Below, one piece after another: positions 49,142 through 59,084 of a stretch of DNA of 64,000 nucleotides; the first letter of the stretch is position 1; each line of letters begins with the position of its first letter. This DNA is from Actinomycetes bacterium (GTDB lineage: Bacteria > Actinomycetota > Acidimicrobiia > Acidimicrobiales > Ilumatobacteraceae): the NCBI GenBank assembly GCA_014190235.1, contig BJGC01000010.1, forward strand, positions 1-64,000, in the 5' to 3' direction. The translations under genes and the position numbers were made by a program. The notes under the pieces were generated by a model. The model was not told where the DNA came from. It saw nothing but the letters and a program-made list of their open reading frames with translations, and ran no database searches.

Positions 49142-49468
49142 TCAGGAGTCCTGTTGCATCGTGGCCCACAGGCCATGGTCGTGCAGTCTGTAGACGTCTA
49201 GTTCTGCGCGTTCACGAGAGCCGTTGGAGACGACCGCTCTGCCTTTTTCGTGCACGTCGAGCATGAGTTCGGTGGCCTTTTCATTGGAATAGCCGAATAA
49301 TTTTTGCAGGACGAATGTGACGTACGACATCAAATTGATTGGGTCGTTCCAGACCAACACGATCCATGGAGTGTCAAGGTCAACGATGTCTGATGTATCG
49401 GGCTCGTCGGCGATAACAGGCTGTTCGACGGGTCGCACGGAGGGGCTCACAGGAACATTGTGGCGCAA
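49142..49468 (-). CDS. clpS: ATP-dependent Clp protease adaptor ClpS
   Basis: N-end-rule adaptor that hands proteins with destabilising N-termini to the Clp protease. The core is clear: [46 protein letters not shown], with the Asn-Asp substrate pocket and the family VHxxGxAVV. Length is 108 residues from the TTG at 49468, or 102 from a GTG at 49450; neither has a good ribosome-binding site. It is divergent from ctaB and overlaps its possible longer start. Confidence 0.93.
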
Positions 49469-49507
49469 TTAGGGGTTTTTGGCTACTGCTCGTACGATGA
49501 AGTCCTT

Positions 49508-50443
49508 ATGTCGATCAAAGTTCGCCCCGTTGTGCCATCGCGGCTTGTCGGCAGGGGTGGGCATGAATCGACGCGAACACCGTCATCTGTCGTGGGCGCG
49601 TATGTTGCCTTGACCAAACCGCGGATTATCGAACTACTCCTCATCACCACAGTGCCAACGATGGTGCTAGCAGAGGGTGGCTGGCCATCATGGGGTCTAG
49701 TACTCGTCACGTTGCTTGGCGGCACGTTGGCAGCCGGCGGAGCAAACGCAATCAATATGTACATCGATCGAGACATTGATGCACTGATGGAACGCACCAA
49801 AATGCGACCGCTCGTCACGGGTGTGATCGCCCCCCGAAACGCATTGATCTTTGCTATTTCGCTTGAGTTCATCGCATTTGGCGTGTTGTGGGCGGGCGCC
49901 AATCTCTTGTCCGGAATCCTGGCGATCTGTGCAACGTTGTTCTATGTGTTTGTGTACAGCCTGTGGCTCAAACGAACGAGCAAGCAAAACATTGTGATTG
50001 GCGGTGCTGCTGGTGCTGTCCCCGTGTTAGTGGGGTGGGCAGCGGTCACAAATTCAGTCAGTTGGTCGGCGGTATTGCTGTTTGCGGTCATATTTTTCTG
50101 GACACCACCCCATTTTTGGGCTCTTGCAATTCGCCACAACGATGACTACAAAGCGGCCGGAGTTCCGATGTTGCCCGCCGTGGTTTCTCTGCGTCAGACC
50201 ATCGCATCAATGGTTCGCTACTGCATCGCCGTGGTCGTGGTCAGTTTGGCGCTGATCCCTGTTGCTGATTTGGGGTGGATCTACGGCGTCGTGGCTGCAA
50301 TCGTTGGGGCGTTGTTCTTGGGAGGCACAATCGCACTAGGTCGTAGACCTAGTGAAGCAGGAGCAATGCGGCTCTTTTCTTTCTCAATTACGTATCTCTC
50401 GCTCTTGTTTTTGGCTCTCACGGTCGATGTTCTTGTGCGCTAA
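49508..50443 (+). CDS. ctaB: Protoheme IX farnesyltransferase (haem O synthase)
   Basis: UbiA-type membrane prenyltransferase that makes haem O, the precursor of haem A for cytochrome oxidase. The first Asp-rich motif is NMYIDRDIDALMERTKMRPL, and the second region contains HNDDYKAAGVPMLP. About nine membrane helices are visible. The ATG at 49508 gives 311 residues; an upstream GTG (49460) would overlap clpS. It lies 139 bp upstream of the oxidase operon, which uses its product. The haem A synthase ctaA is not in the window. Confidence 0.94.
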   Translation: MSIKVRPVVPSRLVGRGGHESTRTPSSVVGAYVALTKPRIIELLLITTVPTMVLAEGGWPSWGLVLVTLLGGTLAAGGANAINMYIDRDIDALMERTKMRPLVTGVIAPRNALIFAISLEFIAFGVLWAGANLLSGILAICATLFYVFVYSLWLKRTSKQNIVIGGAAGAVPVLVGWAAVTNSVSWSAVLLFAVIFFWTPPHFWALAIRHNDDYKAAGVPMLPAVVSLRQTIASMVRYCIAVVVVSLALIPVADLGWIYGVVAAIVGALFLGGTIALGRRPSEAGAMRLFSFSITYLSLLFLALTVDVLVR

Positions 50444-50582: not shown

Positions 50583-52196
50583 ATGACCACAATTCACACG
50601 AATGTTGATGTAACCGCGGCTGGCAGTCGCGCGGCATCTCTTGTGTCTGTCATCGCCGACTGGATCACCACGGCCGACCACAAAAAAATAGGTCGATTAT
50701 TTATTGGCTCGTCACTTGTAGCGGCTGTAGCCACTGCGGTTCTCGCTGCGTTTCTTGGACTCGAACGAATAAGTGCATCTAGTTATTCAATTCTCAACGG
50801 AGACTCCGTCGTGCAACTTTTTGCCGCGTATCAGTTTTCTCTTGTCTATGCCATTGTTGCCCCACTTTTTATTGGACTGGCCATTGCTGTTGTGCCGTTG
50901 CAGTTGGGTTCGCGTTCATTGTCGTATCCGCGTCTGGCCGCGTTTGGCTTTTGGGCGTGGGCGAGTGGCCTGATCATCACACTTGTCGCCATAGGCGCCA
51001 ATGGTGGCCCTGGTGGCGGCAACTCCAACATGGTGGATCTGTATCTCTTGGCACTCGGACTTGTCGCGCTCGGACTTAGCGCAGCATCGGTCAGCATCGC
51101 TGTGACTGTGCTGACATCACGCGCCCCCGGCATGTCGCTCTTACGAACACCAATGTTTAGCTGGTCTGCACTCATGGGTGCGATGGCCACAGTTTTGACA
51201 TTGCCTGTGTTGATCGGAACACTCGCATACCTCTACGTTGACCACACATACGGGCGTTTGGCGTTTGGTGGCAACGTAGATGTCAATAAGTGGATCGGTT
51301 GGTCTTTCAATCAGCCTCAGACTTTTATCTTTGCCGTGATGGCCGTTGGTGTCTTGGCAGAACTGGCTCCGATTGTTGCTGGTGTTCGACAACCGCTTCG
51401 ACCCGTCATGCTGATCGGCATCACACTTGTTTCGACTGCGGCGTTGGGTGCGGCAACACAAAGTACTCACGCGATGTCGTGGACCGGAACAACCTCGGAC
51501 AAAGTTCAAGAATTCATTCCGTTCGCGTTATTTAATCTTCTGCCGATTCTGGGAGTGCTCATCGTGCTAGCGCTCGGCGGACTGGCAGCAAAGGCTGGTC
51601 GAGTGAAGCCCACTGCAAGTTTCGTGTTCGCATTTCTTGGAACCGGAATGATTCTTGTCGGCATGCTTGTTCATGCATTGTCATTGATTGGCCCTGCCGC
51701 ACTGGCCGGAACAGTGGCTCAAGAATCATCAACGCTGTACGTGGTGTACGGAGCAGTCATGGTGGCGCTCGGTGCGATTATGCACTGGGGTCCCAAGTTG
51801 TGGGGTCGACGACTACCCGAAAAAGAAATGTTTGGTCTTGCCGCACTATCGCTGGGGGCGACAGTTTTAAGTTCTTTGCCCTACGTTCTTGCTGGCTTTC
51901 TTGATCAACCAGCCAATGCAGTTGCTGGATGGTCATACGACGTATCTGCACTTTTAAATACAGTCTCAACGATCGGTCATGCGCTGATGTTCATCACCGT
52001 GCTTGGTTTCATTGGCCTCGCATTCAAACATTTCACGACCGGAGCACTTGCTGGTGACGATCCGTGGGATGCCCATTCTTTGGAATGGTCAATTCCGTCG
52101 CCTGCACCTGCTGGCAACTTTGCTGATATTGCAACCGTTGGTTCTGCCGAACCATTACTCGATGTCAAACCCCCACGACAAGGAGTATCGGCATGA
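50583..52196 (+). CDS. Cytochrome c oxidase subunit I paralogue lacking haem/copper ligands
   Basis: A 537-residue, about 12-helix protein clearly homologous to the real subunit I at 55205. Shared landmarks are DHKKIGRLF, PLQLGSRSLSYPRL, RAPGMSLLRTPMFSW, WGPKLWGR and DPWDAHSLEW. Yet the working residues are gone: the low-spin haem His is Tyr83; the CuB His, proton Glu and cross-linked Tyr of HPEVY read Gln244, Gln246 and Phe248; the HH pair reads Thr295-His296; the HFH motif is deleted (LYVVYGAVMVALG); and the D-channel Asp is Ser. It cannot bind the usual cofactors. It heads the oxidase operon and is coupled (ATGA) to a subunit III paralogue. A scaffold, assembly or regulatory role is inferred. 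Confidence 0.85.
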   Translation: MTTIHTNVDVTAAGSRAASLVSVIADWITTADHKKIGRLFIGSSLVAAVATAVLAAFLGLERISASSYSILNGDSVVQLFAAYQFSLVYAIVAPLFIGLAIAVVPLQLGSRSLSYPRLAAFGFWAWASGLIITLVAIGANGGPGGGNSNMVDLYLLALGLVALGLSAASVSIAVTVLTSRAPGMSLLRTPMFSWSALMGAMATVLTLPVLIGTLAYLYVDHTYGRLAFGGNVDVNKWIGWSFNQPQTFIFAVMAVGVLAELAPIVAGVRQPLRPVMLIGITLVSTAALGAATQSTHAMSWTGTTSDKVQEFIPFALFNLLPILGVLIVLALGGLAAKAGRVKPTASFVFAFLGTGMILVGMLVHALSLIGPAALAGTVAQESSTLYVVYGAVMVALGAIMHWGPKLWGRRLPEKEMFGLAALSLGATVLSSLPYVLAGFLDQPANAVAGWSYDVSALLNTVSTIGHALMFITVLGFIGLAFKHFTTGALAGDDPWDAHSLEWSIPSPAPAGNFADIATVGSAEPLLDVKPPRQGVSA

Positions 52197-52798
52197 CACT
52201 GACACTTCCGTCTGCCGTCGCGCCAGCACCAAAACGACAGGCACTTGTTGCCACTGCGGTTGCTAGTGCTGCAATCACCATGCTGATGGCAGGCATGCTC
52301 GGCGTATGGTTGCGTTTTAGAGCCGCCGCCGACACACGCATGTCGTCAGATGGACGAAAAGTTATTAAGGACTGGTTGCCATCCGACATCAAGATTCCAG
52401 AAGTGTCTTCTAACACGATGCTGATTGGATTATTTTTTGGATGCGTCATGGCGCAATGGGCTGTGTACGCAGCGAAGCGCGATGATTCGTCACACCGCTC
52501 CGTCGCGCTAGCGGTGTGCTTGCTGATGGAAGTTGCCATTATTAATGCACAGGTCGCGGTGTATAGCCAGATGAAAATTGGTGTCACTGACGGCGTGTAC
52601 CAGACAATGTTTTACGCAATCACTGGAGTTGTCGTTGTGTTGTTAGCGGTTGGTATGGCGTTCACTTCGGTGACATGGTTTCGATCTGTTGGTGGTCGAG
52701 ATAACGACAGTCACGTAGTGGCTGCTCATGCGTTGTATTGGTATGTCCTCACTGCAGTTTTTTGTGCGGTGTGGTTTGTGGTGTACGTACAGAAGTAG
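52193..52798 (+). CDS. Cytochrome c oxidase subunit III paralogue
   Basis: A 201-residue, five-helix protein with the subunit III fold. Comparison with the genuine subunit III at 57195 aligns QVAVYSQMKIGVTDGVYQTMFYAITG with QVYEFTAFYNEGLGF and SSSFYTLTG, and ALYWYVLTAVFCAVWFVVYV with GLYWHFVDIVWIIIFTLVYL. The conserved Glu of QVYEF is Val123, and the two histidines of TGFHGVHVTVG are replaced (TGVVVVLLAVG). It starts inside the stop of the subunit I paralogue (ATGA), so the two are made together and probably assemble with each other. The function is unknown. Confidence 0.75.
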   Translation: MTLTLPSAVAPAPKRQALVATAVASAAITMLMAGMLGVWLRFRAAADTRMSSDGRKVIKDWLPSDIKIPEVSSNTMLIGLFFGCVMAQWAVYAAKRDDSSHRSVALAVCLLMEVAIINAQVAVYSQMKIGVTDGVYQTMFYAITGVVVVLLAVGMAFTSVTWFRSVGGRDNDSHVVAAHALYWYVLTAVFCAVWFVVYVQK

Positions 52799-52804
52799 GA
52801 CGAC

Positions 52805-53926
52805 ATGTTTACGACAGGATCAAAATATTGCTTCGGCATCGCAGGTCTTGGGTCGTTGGGCGCTGTTGTGTACATGGTCTTGGTGCACCCGTGCGATGTC
52901 GGTGTGCTTGCACTCCTCGGTATTGCGATTGCGATGTCACTTGTTGGTGGTGTTGCTCAGTTCACGGGTGACTTTGACGTTGATTCACCAAATGATGCCC
53001 TCACAGCAAATGCAGTTGCACCCGCAAACAGCATGTGGCCCCTGGTGCTGGCTCTTGGCGTTGTGTTGTTGCTGGTCGGGATGACAACCGATCCAATTAT
53101 TTTTATTTTAGGAATTGTCATCATTATTGCTGCCGGAGTTGAGTGGGCTCTGCAGTCATGGGCAGAGCGTGCGTCAAGCGATTCTGCTTTCAACAGATTT
53201 GTGCGCGAGCGCGCGCTAACTTCACTCGAGTTACCTATTTTTGTCGGTGGCGGTGTGGCAATCATCGCAGTGGCATTTTCGCGAATCATGTTGGCAGTGT
53301 CTCCACATAGTGGAGCAATCTTGTTCATCGTGATAGCCACTGCTGTTCTCATTGTTGGTTTCTTGGTTTCTGTCAAAACAAATATCAAGAAGAGCATGAT
53401 TGCCGCGACGTGTGTGCTTGGAGCGGTCGTGCTATTGGTATCCGGTGGTATTGCCGGATTCAACGGAAATCGCGAAGAGCTTGTGGTCGCTGCAGCAGAG
53501 GATCATTATTCTCACAAGGAATGTGAGGCTGCCGCATCGGAGCACTTCGACAAGAACTCAAATAATGCTGTCAGCATGAAGTCTGGGATATCTGCCACTA
53601 TCCGAGTCAAGGATGGCAAATTGACCGCTCAACTGATTGGCATCGATGCGCAAGTTCAGGCGGTCACGGTGCAACGCTCGAACTTAACCACTATTTTGTT
53701 TCGCAATCTAGATGATGCGCAGTATCGACTTGTTGCCAATCTGGGAACTAAAAAAATCGCTGATACTGGCGTTGAAGAAGCGATCGTAGACTGCACACAA
53801 ATGACCGGAAAAAATCAGACTCAGGCATTGATTCTCAAAATCAGTAAGCCATCGGCGTCCTCGGGTCCGTACACGCTGACCGTTCCAGGTCTTGAAGGCC
53901 AAGAGATTGCAGTGGTAGTGCCGTGA
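52805..53926 (+). CDS. Seven-helix membrane protein with C-terminal degenerate cupredoxin-like domain
   Basis: A 373-residue protein. About seven membrane helices fill residues 8-218; the pair at 78-113 (MWPLVLALGVVLLL, PIIFILGIVIIIAAG) resembles the subunit IV-like pair at the end of the real subunit I. An extracytoplasmic domain (225-373) has a cupredoxin-like ending: ILFRNLDDAQYRLVANLG and SGPYTLTVPGLEGQEIAVVV. In copper proteins the equivalent spots hold His, Cys and His; here they are Gln306/Tyr307, Val360 and about Gln366. Two cysteines (240, 330) may form a disulfide. It may stand in for subunits II and IV of the non-catalytic complex. It overlaps ctaC (GTGA). No confident family assignment. 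Confidence 0.6.
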   Translation: MFTTGSKYCFGIAGLGSLGAVVYMVLVHPCDVGVLALLGIAIAMSLVGGVAQFTGDFDVDSPNDALTANAVAPANSMWPLVLALGVVLLLVGMTTDPIIFILGIVIIIAAGVEWALQSWAERASSDSAFNRFVRERALTSLELPIFVGGGVAIIAVAFSRIMLAVSPHSGAILFIVIATAVLIVGFLVSVKTNIKKSMIAATCVLGAVVLLVSGGIAGFNGNREELVVAAAEDHYSHKECEAAASEHFDKNSNNAVSMKSGISATIRVKDGKLTAQLIGIDAQVQAVTVQRSNLTTILFRNLDDAQYRLVANLGTKKIADTGVEEAIVDCTQMTGKNQTQALILKISKPSASSGPYTLTVPGLEGQEIAVVVP

Positions 53927-55188
53927 GTCACGACAGCACATTGACAGATTCGCAGCAGAACCTGAGTACCTTCAAGAAGATGAATCAAGTAATGCCTCTG
54001 CGCCGAATTGGTTTGGGGCTTGCAGCGAGCAGTGCCATCTTCTTGGCCGGTTGTGCACGAAATGCACCGCAAGACACGTGGCAGCCCAAAGGCGAAAACG
54101 CCGAGAAGATCAACACCTTGCAGTGGATGGTGTTTCCGCTTGCCGGAATCGTCGGAGTTGCGGTCTTTGCGTTGATCGCTTACATTTTGTGGCGTTTTCG
54201 TGACAGAGGTCAGGCGATTCCTCATCAGTCGCACGGAAATCCCGCAGTAGAAATCACGCTAACTATTATTCCAGCACTCATTTTGAGCGTTGTCGGTGTG
54301 TTCACGTTCAAGGGCATTTTCGAGCTAGCGCAAACCAATGACACGCAGATGGTAATCAACGTCACCGGACAACAGTGGTGGTGGGAATATGACTACCCAG
54401 CACAAGTGGTGAACGGGGTCGAGATCACTCAGCCAATCATCACATCTGGTCAACTTGTCATACCCACTGGCACTAAAGTGTTATTGCGCGAGACAAGCCG
54501 CGATGTCATTCACTCGTACTGGATCCCGGCACTCAACGGCAAAAAAGATGCAGTTCCTGGTCGCATCAATCTCTTGCGGATTCAAGCAAACAAACCAGGA
54601 ATTTTTGCTGGTCAGTGCACAGAATTTTGTGGACTATCTCATGCCAACATGCGTATGGAAGCGGTGGCCCTTGGCCCCGAGGACTTTGCGGCATGGATCG
54701 CCAATCAGCAGCGCAACGCCGAATCACCCGCCCAAGCCACCCTTGCTCAGGAAGGCGAGGCAGTTTTTCTTAACCAATGCATTCGTTGTCACCAGGTCAA
54801 TGGACTCAAAAAGGCAGACGGCACGGCGGCCATTGCGGCCCCAGATGAAAACGTATATTCAGGCGCGGTGCCGAACCTCACCCACTTGATGAGTCGCAAC
54901 ACATTCGCTGGGGCAAAGTTTGATCTGCTGACAGCTGATTGTCGCAAGAACGTGTGGTCAGCATCGCCTGATGAATTTGGTTCTGCGTATCTCAAGGGCG
55001 TCACATCTGATTGTCTCAATCAGACCAATCTTCGTGGCTGGTTGCGTAATGCCCCCGCAATGAAACCGATGTACGCCGATCCCACCAAACTTGCAGTATC
55101 TGACGGCAAGTATCGTGGTATGCCTAATCTCGGATTATCCGAGTCCGACATCGACAAACTTGTCGCTTATCTCTCGACACTGAAATAA
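53923..55188 (+). CDS. ctaC: Cytochrome c oxidase subunit II with fused cytochrome c
   Basis: Electron-entry subunit of an aa3/caa3-type oxidase. A lipobox-like FLAGC (Cys44) is followed by two membrane helices (about 68-90 and 110-130). The CuA domain has QQWWWEYDY, HSYWIP (His197) and GQCTEFCGLSHANM (Cys232, Cys236, His240, Met243). A C-terminal cytochrome c domain has CIRCH (286-290) and axial Met400 in RGMPNLGLS, with a long insertion holding an extra Cys pair (Cys340, Cys364). Length is 421 residues. The start is GTG, coupled to the upstream gene. It is the first catalytic subunit of the operon. Confidence 0.95.
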   Translation: MSHDSTLTDSQQNLSTFKKMNQVMPLRRIGLGLAASSAIFLAGCARNAPQDTWQPKGENAEKINTLQWMVFPLAGIVGVAVFALIAYILWRFRDRGQAIPHQSHGNPAVEITLTIIPALILSVVGVFTFKGIFELAQTNDTQMVINVTGQQWWWEYDYPAQVVNGVEITQPIITSGQLVIPTGTKVLLRETSRDVIHSYWIPALNGKKDAVPGRINLLRIQANKPGIFAGQCTEFCGLSHANMRMEAVALGPEDFAAWIANQQRNAESPAQATLAQEGEAVFLNQCIRCHQVNGLKKADGTAAIAAPDENVYSGAVPNLTHLMSRNTFAGAKFDLLTADCRKNVWSASPDEFGSAYLKGVTSDCLNQTNLRGWLRNAPAMKPMYADPTKLAVSDGKYRGMPNLGLSESDIDKLVAYLSTLK

Positions 55189-55204: not shown

Positions 55205-57202
55205 ATGGCCATTATCGAACGCCCAGCCCCCACCGCACCTATCTTGTTGCGCGCCCCCGTGACACCATCTCAGTCAATGGGCATTGTGCGTCGTCCTGTG
55301 ACGTCAACGGGCTGGAAATCATGGGTCTTCACTGTTGATCACAAAAAAATCGGCATCATGTATGGAGTCTTTGCGATGTTCTTTTTCATCGTCGGTGGCG
55401 TTGAAGCGCTATTAATCCGTTTGCAACTTGCTGCACCAGACGGCAAAATTCTCAGTGCTGACTTGTACAACCAAATGTTCACGATGCATGCAACCACGAT
55501 GATCTTTTTGTTCGCTATGCCCATGGCGGCAGCATTTGCGAACTACTTTTTGCCGTTGCAGTTAGGCGCGCGTGACGTTGCATTTCCGCGTCTCAACGCA
55601 TTAGGGCTGTGGTTGTTAGTGGCTGGCGGCCTCATCTTAAACTCATCGTGGTTTTTAGGCGGCGCTGCAGATGGTGGTTGGTTTATGTATTCACCAAACT
55701 CCGGACCAGTTTTTTCTCCAAGTAACGGTGTTGACTTCTGGACACTCGGCGTACAGATTGCCGGCTTCGGCTCGCTCATCGGTTCAATCAACTTGATCGT
55801 CACCATTCTCAACATGCGCGCACCGGGCATGACACTCATGAAGATGCCGGTATTTTGCTGGATGATTCTGGTGGTGCAGTTCTTGCTGGTGTTCTCGTTG
55901 CCTGTGATCACCGTTGCACTCGTACTACTCACCTTTCAGCGTTCTTTTGGTGCTACGTTCTTCGATGTTGCGCAAGGAGCAGACCCCTTATTGTGGCAAC
56001 ACTTATTCTGGATCTTCGGGCACCCTGAGGTGTATGTGCTGATCTTGCCGGCCTTTGGGATTATCTCTGAAGTGCTGCCGACGTTTTCTCGAAAGCCACT
56101 TTTCGGGTATCCGTTTGTGGTTTTTTCGGGAGCGTCAATCGGGCTCGTCGGTTTTGGTGTGTGGTCTCACCACATGTTTGCAACTGGTCTCGGTCCAATT
56201 TCAGTTGCAGCGTTCTCAATTGCAACGATGGCAATTGCAATTCCGACTGGTGTAAAAATCTTTAACTGGACGCTCACGATGTGGGGCGGAAAAATCTGGT
56301 ATTCAACGGCAATGAAGTTCGCCATCGGACTCATCGTGCTGTTCACAATCGGTGGCTTGTCGGGCGTTACCCATGCAGTGGCTCCGTCAGATACGCAACA
56401 AACCGACACGTATTACATCGTGGCCCATTTCCACTACGTACTTTTTGGTGGAATGGTATTTGGTCTTTTCTCCGGCTTTTACTACTGGTGGCCCAAGGTG
56501 TTCGGAAAAATGCTCAACGAAAAACTGGGTGGCTGGAATTTTTGGTTAATGGTGATCGGCATGAATATGACCTTTGGACCCATGCACATCTTGGGCCTAC
56601 AAGGTCAACCACGACGCATGTATGTCTGGACCGAAGCCCGCGCTGGTGAGGGGTTCTTCAACTTTGGTTTCTGGAACCGAGTTGCGTCACTCGGTTCTCT
56701 GATTCTGGCCATCGGAATTTTACTCTTCCTAATCAATGTGGTGCACACCACCCGCAAGGGCAAGCCTGCTCCACTCGATCCGTGGGATGCGCGCACACTT
56801 GAGTGGATCACGACGAGTCCCCCCAAAGAGCACAACTTCGATCGCATTCCTGTCGTGCACCATCTGGACGACTTCTTTCATCGCAAGTACCAAGAGGACG
56901 CCACTACTGGCACGATGGTGCAGATCGCTACGGGTGAGCAATTAGTTCGTGATGAAGAAGCAAATGCCGATGCACATATTCATCTGCCGTCTCCGTCGTA
57001 TTGGCCAATTGCGATTGCGATTGGTGTTGGCACCCTTGGCATGGGAGTGGTGTACGGAGTTCCGATCATGATTGTTGGCGTTCTCATCATCCTCGGTTCT
57101 TCTTTTGGATTCGTTCTCGAACCGTCCGTTGCAGACGACATTGATTATGACCCACCGATGTCTGGTGGCCAAGACACGAAAGAGTTGGCACCCCTTGGAT
57201 GA
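55205..57202 (+). CDS. ctaD: Cytochrome c oxidase subunit I (catalytic)
   Basis: Haem-copper oxidase catalytic subunit reducing O2 and pumping protons. All ligands are present: His95 (MHATTM), GHPEVY (His273, Glu275, Tyr277), His322-His323 (WSHHMF), HFH (408-410) and D-channel Asp124 (GARDVAFPR). About 12 core helices are followed by a C-terminal extension (about 565-665) with two extra helices (YWPIAIAIGVGTLGMGV, PIMIVGVLIILGSSFG), like a fused subunit IV, making it 665 residues rather than about 550. It is 16 bp after ctaC and overlaps ctaE by 8 bp. Confidence 0.97.
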   Translation: MAIIERPAPTAPILLRAPVTPSQSMGIVRRPVTSTGWKSWVFTVDHKKIGIMYGVFAMFFFIVGGVEALLIRLQLAAPDGKILSADLYNQMFTMHATTMIFLFAMPMAAAFANYFLPLQLGARDVAFPRLNALGLWLLVAGGLILNSSWFLGGAADGGWFMYSPNSGPVFSPSNGVDFWTLGVQIAGFGSLIGSINLIVTILNMRAPGMTLMKMPVFCWMILVVQFLLVFSLPVITVALVLLTFQRSFGATFFDVAQGADPLLWQHLFWIFGHPEVYVLILPAFGIISEVLPTFSRKPLFGYPFVVFSGASIGLVGFGVWSHHMFATGLGPISVAAFSIATMAIAIPTGVKIFNWTLTMWGGKIWYSTAMKFAIGLIVLFTIGGLSGVTHAVAPSDTQQTDTYYIVAHFHYVLFGGMVFGLFSGFYYWWPKVFGKMLNEKLGGWNFWLMVIGMNMTFGPMHILGLQGQPRRMYVWTEARAGEGFFNFGFWNRVASLGSLILAIGILLFLINVVHTTRKGKPAPLDPWDARTLEWITTSPPKEHNFDRIPVVHHLDDFFHRKYQEDATTGTMVQIATGEQLVRDEEANADAHIHLPSPSYWPIAIAIGVGTLGMGVVYGVPIMIVGVLIILGSSFGFVLEPSVADDIDYDPPMSGGQDTKELAPLG

Positions 57203-57806
57203 TGTAGCAGTTCTTACCAGTCACGAAACTGGGCACGGTCATTCCACGTCCACCGGATTATCTAATAACAAGATGGCGATGTGGCTGTTCTTGGGTTCAG
57301 AGTGCTTGCTTTTTGGCGGCTTAATTTCTACATACATGCTGTATCGCGGCCGAATCACCCAAGGGCCACGACCATCTCAGATTTTTGATATTCCGTTCAC
57401 ATCGGTCAGCAGTTTTGTCTTGCTGATGTCGTCGCTCACCATGGTGTTGGCAGTGACTTCGGCGCAACGAAAAGACAATGTACGCACAAAGTTGTGGCTA
57501 ACAATCACGGCGTTACTTGGAGCCACCTTTGTTGGTGGTCAAGTGTATGAGTTCACTGCTTTCTATAACGAAGGTTTGGGCTTCACGACAAACCTTTTCA
57601 GTTCGAGTTTCTATACTCTCACTGGGTTCCACGGAGTACACGTGACGGTCGGTGTAATTATGCTTTTGTCTCTACGGGGCATTATCAGCAAAGACAAAGA
57701 CACAGGTGATCGCCCAGAAGTTGTCGAGTTAATTGGTCTGTACTGGCACTTTGTTGACATCGTGTGGATCATTATTTTCACCCTCGTGTATCTGATCCCG
57801 GCATAA
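57195..57806 (+). CDS. ctaE: Cytochrome c oxidase subunit III
   Basis: Structural and proton-uptake-supporting subunit. A His-rich start (TSHETGHGHSTSTGLSNN) is followed by five helices: KMAMWLFLGSECLLFGGLIS, SFVLLMSSLTMVLAV, GGQVYEFTAF (conserved Glu), the TGFHGVHVTVG signature and GLYWHFVDIVWIIIF. The start is set at TTG 57195, which overlaps the ctaD stop and gives 203 residues with the expected N-terminus; ATG at 57273 would delete the conserved N-terminal stretch. ctaF follows 12 bp later. Confidence 0.93.
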   Translation: MDDVAVLTSHETGHGHSTSTGLSNNKMAMWLFLGSECLLFGGLISTYMLYRGRITQGPRPSQIFDIPFTSVSSFVLLMSSLTMVLAVTSAQRKDNVRTKLWLTITALLGATFVGGQVYEFTAFYNEGLGFTTNLFSSSFYTLTGFHGVHVTVGVIMLLSLRGIISKDKDTGDRPEVVELIGLYWHFVDIVWIIIFTLVYLIPA

Positions 57807-57818
57807 AGGAGTCTGCTG

Positions 57819-58136
57819 ATGAACGCCACCGCTACTGATACTCACGAGCAGCATGACTCTCATGCACACGGTCTGAGTGATGCAACAGCAATCAAGATCG
57901 CTCTGATCTTGGGGGTAATGACGGCGCTTGAAGTGTCAACCTATTTTGTGGATTTTGGTGCGTTTTTTATGCCAGTCCTGCTGGTGTTGATGGTCGTCAA
58001 GTTTCTGACGGTGGTGAGTTACTTCATGCATCTCAAGTTTGAGCACCAGATGTTCAAACTCTTGTTCTACACCGGCCTCGGACTGGCGTTGTTTGTGTAC
58101 TTCGTGGCATTGGCAACCTTTAAGTTCTTTAGTTAA
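57819..58136 (+). CDS. ctaF: Cytochrome c oxidase subunit IV (caa3/CyoD type)
   Basis: A 105-residue, three-helix subunit. A His-rich N-terminus (THEQHDSHAHG) is followed by ATAIKIALILGVMTALEVSTYF, MPVLLVLMVVKFLTVVSYFMHLKFE and a third helix ending in ATFKFFS. The VKFxxVxxYFMHLKFE motif is the prokaryotic COX4 signature. AAAGGAG lies 7-8 nt before the ATG. It sits between ctaE and ctaG in the oxidase operon. Confidence 0.9.
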   Translation: MNATATDTHEQHDSHAHGLSDATAIKIALILGVMTALEVSTYFVDFGAFFMPVLLVLMVVKFLTVVSYFMHLKFEHQMFKLLFYTGLGLALFVYFVALATFKFFS

Positions 58137-58154: not shown

Positions 58155-59084
58155 ATGCTGTTCGCTGGTGCTGGAGTTTCTCTGAACCCAAATCCGTGGC
58201 GTTTTCAACCACACCCCGAAGTGTGGTTGCTGATTGTTTTTCTGATTGCAGCTTTCATCTATGCAGTGAGAGTGATTGGTCCGCGAGTCGCACCTGCTGG
58301 ACATGTCATTAGCCAACGACAGACGCGACTATTTATTCTGATGATTACGCTTCTCTGGCTGGCGACCGATTGGCCAATGCATGATATTGCCGAGGAATAT
58401 CTGTATTCCGTGCACATGGTGCAACACCTCATCTTGTCGTACTTTGTTCCGCCACTTGCTCTGATGTGTGTGCCCGAGTGGATGTTTCGACTACTGATCG
58501 GGACTGGTCGCACCTACCGAGTCGTGCGGTTTGCCACCAAGCCTGTGGCGGCGGGTCTCGCTTTCAATCTCGTAGTGATGATCACTCATATTCCTAAATT
58601 GGTAAATCTCAGCGCGAGCAAAGGCCCGCTGCACTATTCGCTTCACATCTTATTAGTGACAACTGCGCTCATGTTTTGGATGCCCGTGTGTGGGCCACTG
58701 CGCGAATGGCAGATGAAGCCTGGCGGCAAGATGATCTACATGTTCGTGTTGTCGTTTGTGCCAACGATCCCTGCAGGCTGGTTGACGTTTGCCAATGGTT
58801 CGGTATATCGCCACTACGACACGCCGATTCGTGTGTGGGGTATCTCAGTGTTGGGGGATCAGCAGGCGGCGGGTGGAATCATGAAACTTGGAGGCTCGGT
58901 TTTTATCTGGGCGATCATTATCTTTTTGTTCTTCAAACGCTTCATCGGTAATTTTCATGAACAACAGAGTTATCTCCCTGACGACAACATCCCGGACTCA
59001 GAGATTGTTGGTACTGAGGAGCCACTGTTGTACGAAGACGTCACCCGCGCATTTGCCCAAGTTCGACCCGCAAAAGAAGAGTAA
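58155..59084 (+). CDS. ctaG: Cytochrome c oxidase assembly protein, caa3_CtaG family
   Basis: A 309-residue protein with about seven membrane helices, needed for copper insertion in caa3-type oxidases. Conserved features are WPMHDIAEEYLYSVHMVQHLILSYFVPPLAL with its paired histidines, NLVVMITHIPKLVN, LHYSLHILLVTTALMFWMPVCGP and SVLGDQQAAGGIMKLGGS. It is the last gene of the operon, 18 bp after ctaF. It ends before the convergent ABC exporter, with no clear terminator hairpin in the 26-bp gap. Confidence 0.9.
   Translation: MLFAGAGVSLNPNPWRFQPHPEVWLLIVFLIAAFIYAVRVIGPRVAPAGHVISQRQTRLFILMITLLWLATDWPMHDIAEEYLYSVHMVQHLILSYFVPPLALMCVPEWMFRLLIGTGRTYRVVRFATKPVAAGLAFNLVVMITHIPKLVNLSASKGPLHYSLHILLVTTALMFWMPVCGPLREWQMKPGGKMIYMFVLSFVPTIPAGWLTFANGSVYRHYDTPIRVWGISVLGDQQAAGGIMKLGGSVFIWAIIIFLFFKRFIGNFHEQQSYLPDDNIPDSEIVGTEEPLLYEDVTRAFAQVRPAKEE

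Follow-up and report, generated by a model that had tools for sequence, protein, structure and literature searches.

A cofactor-free paralogue of oxidase subunit I in the caa3 operon of an Ilumatobacteraceae genome

The caa3 oxidase operon of an actinobacterium of the family Ilumatobacteraceae carries, in addition to its genuine subunit I gene, a paralogue (I′) whose product has lost its cofactor-binding and proton-path residues while keeping the fold. The gene is under purifying selection, lies in a conserved cassette, and has relatives in which the loss is intermediate. We favour, with a probability of roughly 0.55, the reading that I′ was once an electron-carrying side module devoid of CuB and has turned into a cofactor-free structural subunit that is made along with the caa3 oxidase and is probably incorporated in it.

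Membership of the haem-copper oxidase superfamily is usually judged from histidine ligands. A selected, lineage-wide family that has the fold without CuB, and in many members without haem, widens the definition of the superfamily, and in genome surveys its members would be mis-annotated as second oxidases. Here, freshwater actinobacteria conserve a dead copy of subunit I inside their own oxidase operon. Because relatives preserve halfway stages, the change of a respiratory enzyme into a probable structural part can be followed, and it becomes testable in which sequence the cofactors were lost and what a non-catalytic respiratory core does. Suitable material is offered by cultured Ilumatobacter (the genome of I. 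nonamiensis YM16-303 contains I′) and by families with the haem-type module. No account of such an I′ family was found in the open-access literature searched; as the search was largely confined to open-access papers, with subscription journals and preprints mostly outside it, novelty is provisional.

A three-gene cassette between ctaB and the caa3 genes

The window, i.e., the whole 64,000-nucleotide stretch of DNA that was analysed, contains the operon in the following order.

49460–50443, + strand: ctaB, haem O synthase of the UbiA family, first gene of the operon (Pfam UbiA, 217 bits)
50583–52196, + strand: I′, cofactor-free subunit I paralogue, 537 aa, ATG start (Pfam COX1)
52193–52798, + strand: III′, degenerate subunit III paralogue (Pfam COX3, 37.8 bits; family alignment)
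52805–53926, + strand: M, 373 aa, subunit-IV-like helices, further helices and a C-terminal cupredoxin-fold domain free of copper ligands
53923–55188, + strand: ctaC, genuine subunit II with fused cytochrome c (CoxB, 195 bits, above cut-off)
55205–57202, + strand: ctaD, genuine subunit I with all ligands (TIGR02891, 700 bits, above cut-off; COX1, 522 bits)
57072–57806, + strand: ctaE, genuine subunit III (COX3, 66.6 bits)
57819–58136, + strand: ctaF, small subunit IV (COX4_pro, 36 bits; caa3_sub_IV)
58155–59084, + strand: ctaG, caa3 assembly factor (Caa3_CtaG, 128 bits)

The I′-III′-M cassette separates ctaB from the genuine caa3 operon ctaCDEFG. Four-nucleotide overlaps join the stop codon of I′ to the start of III′ (ATGA) and the stop codon of M to the start of ctaC (GTGA), and both pairs are presumably coupled in translation; the gene spacing likewise suggests that the cassette and the caa3 genes are co-transcribed. 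CtaC carries the CuA motif CTEFCGLSHANM and the cytochrome c motif CIRCH, and the true start of ctaE is probably downstream of the annotated TTG. The 2.02-Mb genome holds only two COX1 genes, I′ and ctaD, and no cytochrome bd was found in it.

Relatives of I′ share 42–83% identity across the family of the window and also occur in many families of the same order; the nearest is from a metagenome-assembled genome (MAG), at 97% identity in I′. Those relatives that bear names put the window in or close to Ilumatobacteraceae, as a freshwater acIV-like member. A plasmid search returned distant relatives only (<60% identity), and the annotated matches shown were ordinary ctaD. The order ctaB-I′-III′-M-ctaC-ctaD is shared by the 34 genomes of the first set, the window included, wherever the region is complete; in L051 and L156, about 5 kb separates M from ctaC. 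Of 397 genomes in the order, 262 encode M at E ≤ 1e-30; among the 292 good ones the count is 195, and 126 of 204 genera are represented. In a phylum-wide sample, full-length M was restricted to this order, and within the window's family just one sampled member lacked M. Several public MAGs titled “Bifidobacterium breve” (L189, L198, L200, L203, L226, L243 and L248) carry an Ilumatobacteraceae-type I′ at 45–54% identity and look mislabelled.

When the window's genes were compared with those of three close relatives, dN/dS values for I′ were 0.073, 0.121 and 0.091, with ranges of 0.04–0.18 for III′ and 0.08–0.11 for M. These resemble the values of ctaC, ctaE and ctaG, while ctaD stands at 0.02–0.03; I′ is therefore maintained, although less tightly than ctaD.

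Lost ligands and a retained fold

Pfam COX1 (PF00115) covers I′ from end to end with 107 bits, against a cut-off of 34.8, whereas TIGR02891 gives 171 bits, far under its equivalog cut-off of 670. An AlphaFold2 model built on an alignment of 33 sequences (pLDDT 89.9, pTM 0.92) retains 12 long helices, and its best Foldseek matches in the PDB are the subunits I of mycobacterial and corynebacterial bcc-aa3 supercomplexes. Superposition on these subunits I yields TM-scores of 0.80–0.85 at 22–24% identity (0.85 for 6adq), and the I′ family profile matches chain F of 6adq with an E-value of 2.5e-113. A full-length profile match above the curated cut-off and a predicted 12-helix fold place I′ in the COX1 fold family.

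Residues were compared by aligning I′ with 54 genuine CtaD rows. None of the six histidines that bind haem and CuB is present. The low-spin haem ligand His95 is Tyr83, the CuB motif HPEVY reads Q244-P-Q-T-F248, and the D-channel Asp124 is Ser112, all as the preliminary description of this DNA had proposed. That description was correct in treating I′ as an open reading frame for a subunit I paralogue with lost ligands and kept motifs, and erred in two details that leave its substance unchanged. It had read the HH pair as TH, while the HH site aligns to Gln293-Ser294, with His296 two residues further on; and it had taken the HFH block to be deleted, while the block is substituted by Ser383-Thr-Leu385, with a short gap just upstream. 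The copper site is thus occupied by Q244, Q293 and S294, and Phe248 replaces Tyr277, the cross-linked tyrosine. Tyr83 and Leu385 stand in place of the low-spin pair, and Ser383 in place of the high-spin haem ligand. The proton channels are similarly affected: besides Asp124, Asn113 is replaced by Ile, Asn131 by Ala and Lys351 by Val. Finally, Arg470/471 are Ala/Asn. Since every ligand and channel feature examined is absent, I′ belongs to COX1 by descent and fold and not by the defining function of that family.

What remains is scaffold. The motifs PLQLGxRxxxYPRL, RAPGM and DPWDAxxLEW are retained, and among the 15 invariant residues in the 33-sequence alignment of the I′ family there is no histidine; the invariant positions are Pro, Gly, Arg, Trp, Gln and Glu in scaffold motifs common to CtaD. 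In comparison with A-type subunit I (e.g., that of mycobacterial aa3, 6adq and 8ovc), I′ shares the 12-helix fold, the scaffold motifs and the C-terminal DPW..LEW..PSPPP motif, but lacks the six metal- and haem-binding histidines and the residues of the D- and K-channels, is 20–24% identical to it, and forms a separate clade. The original statement that function was removed and architecture kept is supported by the family alignment, the confident 12-helix model and purifying selection. Nor is the loss a product of chance: a similar one is seen in each of 34 genomes in the first set, and those whose region is complete share a single gene order.

The distribution of constraint along the protein is inverted. 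Helices VII–XII are the least conserved part of I′ (0.23–0.32) as against 0.47–0.80 in CtaD, whose most conserved region comprises helices VI–X. Conservation of I′ stays high in loop II–III (0.66), loop IV–V (0.59) and the C-terminal motif (0.54). From the known topology of aa3 oxidases, we take the two loops to lie on the cytoplasmic side. In terms of pairwise distances, I′ covaries most strongly with III′ (partial r 0.39).

Partner proteins and graded cofactor loss

III′ scores 37.8 bits against a COX3 cut-off of 23.8, with the C-terminal half of the profile covered, and is a member of that family. The N-terminal half of M weakly resembles the actinobacterial cytochrome c oxidase subunit IV (PF12270), with matches below cut-off (e.g., homologue L033 against Cyt_c_ox_IV); M differs from that subunit in continuing into additional helices and a cupredoxin domain. 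In the model of the window's M, a beta domain spans residues 262–371 with a pLDDT of about 90, while the pTM of the whole chain is 0.45. The best Foldseek matches of this domain are auracyanin (2.1e-5) and a Cupredoxin_1 protein; the superpositions are loose, and the domain is predicted to have a cupredoxin-like fold. The type-1 copper loop C-x2-4-H-x2-4-M is absent from the window's M and present in 21 of 54 relatives; haem-type relatives exceed the Cupredoxin_1 cut-off and have a CDFHPNM-like loop. In many other families, the cupredoxin domain of M is wholly missing.

A homologue of the C-terminal half of M is known from other actinobacterial groups, where a helix-anchored cupredoxin protein ends ctaC-D-E-F-G operons. 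In the caa3 operons of L103–L122, for instance, a protein with several predicted helices, usually with a cupredoxin domain, follows ctaC-D-E-F-G and stands alone, without I′ or III′. In the order of the window, by contrast, the cupredoxin forms one chain with IV-like helices and its gene precedes ctaC, and in the window itself the copper is lost. The operon-closing protein of L103–L122 mostly has a plastocyanin-like copper loop; L109, L110 and L117 each carry the cupredoxin as two repeats, and L118 has lost it.

Relatives of I′ display a gradient of loss. All three CuB histidines are present in 54 of 54 genuine CtaD rows. Among 54 I′ proteins, 51 have none of the three and the other three (L035, L047 and L059) have one, never more, so a total loss in every I′ had to be dropped as a generalisation. 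The low-spin pair His95 and His410 is found in 22 of the 54, and His410 never occurs without His95; eight of the 22 also keep the high-spin His408. The copper loop of M accompanies the pair in 20 of 22 cases, as opposed to one of 32 without it (Fisher test 1e-11, a raw value that ignores kinship). In 21 of the 22 pair-bearing proteins (from the haem-type relatives L050, L068 and L153–L172), the position of Asp124 is occupied by Arg, which suggests a conserved new role for this residue in haem-type I′.

A tree was constructed with the ligand columns left out and rooted with genuine CtaD. I′ forms a single clade (100/100) in which haem-bearing rows branch first, and a cofactor-free clade of 31 rows, including the window, is nested within it (100/100). 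Within the nested clade, L040 alone has both low-spin histidines, and no row has the copper loop. Because the tree requires only about three changes per trait, the joint loss of haem and copper is a consistent history and not statistical proof. In its simplest reading, CuB would have been lost first, and haem and copper later and together. Origin of I′ as a recent tandem duplicate of the adjacent ctaD is disfavoured, since I′ falls outside all sampled CtaD, but it does so on a long stem.

Possible roles of the cassette

In the favoured explanation, I′, III′ and M would form a non-catalytic pseudo-core (subunits I, III and IV plus a copper-free cupredoxin) encoded in the same operon as the caa3 oxidase. 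The tree points to a loss of CuB from I′ as the first step. The module would then have retained a single low-spin haem (in I′) and a single type-1 copper (in M), most simply as an electron-carrying side path, and in the basal families electrons could move between the blue copper of M and the single haem of I′. In the lineage of the window, haem and copper would both have been lost and the scaffold would remain, leaving the module a purely structural task as a scaffold, docking or pairing part. The structural reading draws on the position of the cassette between ctaB and ctaC, the four-nucleotide overlaps, the spread within the order and the low dN/dS. It is opposed by the roughly one-third of the order's genomes that do without M, by other classes whose standard caa3 oxidases lack it, and by I′ evolving several-fold faster than CtaD, a constraint weaker than a core contact surface would lead one to expect.

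The pseudo-core is probably packed against the caa3 oxidase or its cytochrome-c donor arm. It would be physically associated with CtaC, CtaD and CtaE and have a scaffold or docking role. Hints that support the pseudo-core reading as a whole are the conservation of the cytoplasmic face, the covariation of I′ with III′, and inserts in CtaC of the cofactor-free clade. A more specific version, put forward tentatively and at somewhat under even odds, pairs an active core with a dead I′-III′-M core in the caa3 oxidase of this order, making it a pseudo-heterodimer; the dead core would be a CuB-free electron carrier with haem and blue copper in the early-branching families and a cofactor-free scaffold in the window's lineage. 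If true, this would document, step by step, how the core of a respiratory oxidase turned structural.

A rather unlikely alternative has I′ and III′ acting as an assembly factor, i.e., a temporary template or chaperone that helps haem A or copper into CtaD or CtaC and then leaves. The cassette does immediately follow ctaB and shares its operon with ctaG, and it has been proposed that new biosynthesis factors can arise when a duplicated gene adapts (PMC9145763); a full set of I, III, IV and, in part, cupredoxin resembles a complex more than a chaperone, and the basal members have cofactor ligands of their own. Less likely again is an independent complex in the membrane that has taken on another function (e.g., as a sensor, or in the passage of lipids or ions) and has no more than the operon in common with the oxidase. 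Its fast divergence, a clade apart from all sampled CtaD, and the gap between M and ctaC in L051 and L156 speak for such independence, but elsewhere the cassette is strongly linked to ctaB and ctaC, and no new conserved polar or catalytic motif accompanies the invariant CtaD-type scaffold residues.

Binding of haem or metal by other residues of the window's I′ is very improbable. Nine histidines are left in the protein, and L040 fills both low-spin positions despite its place in the nested clade. The preliminary description had named His296 and His364 as residues that might rebuild a site and so overturn its conclusion; these occur in just three and four, respectively, of the 31 members of the cofactor-free clade, and a site made from them is rejected on this poor conservation. 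The only histidines frequently kept in that clade are His33 (26 of 31), part of a cytoplasmic DHK motif common to CtaD, and His221 (15 of 31). A decaying duplicate or functionless pseudogene, as the loss of all catalytic residues might imply, is refuted by purifying selection and can be set aside in view of the open frame and the wide occurrence of M in the family and order.

As for the CtaC inserts mentioned in connection with the pseudo-core, a comparison of CtaC homologues from L033–L072 shows that members of the cofactor-free clade have extra segments in the cytochrome c domain, after CxxCH and before the Met region. They are absent from genomes with haem-type cassettes and partly present in the cassette-free L118 and L120, and they amount essentially to one clade-level event. 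The simple idea that the cytochrome c fused to CtaC replaced the cupredoxin fails, as caa3 CtaC has CxxCH with or without the cassette; what differs with cassette type is insert size only, and with exceptions. CtaD itself has a C-terminal extension (residues about 595–640) that resembles subunit IV (Cyt_c_ox_IV, sub-threshold) and also part of the first half of M.
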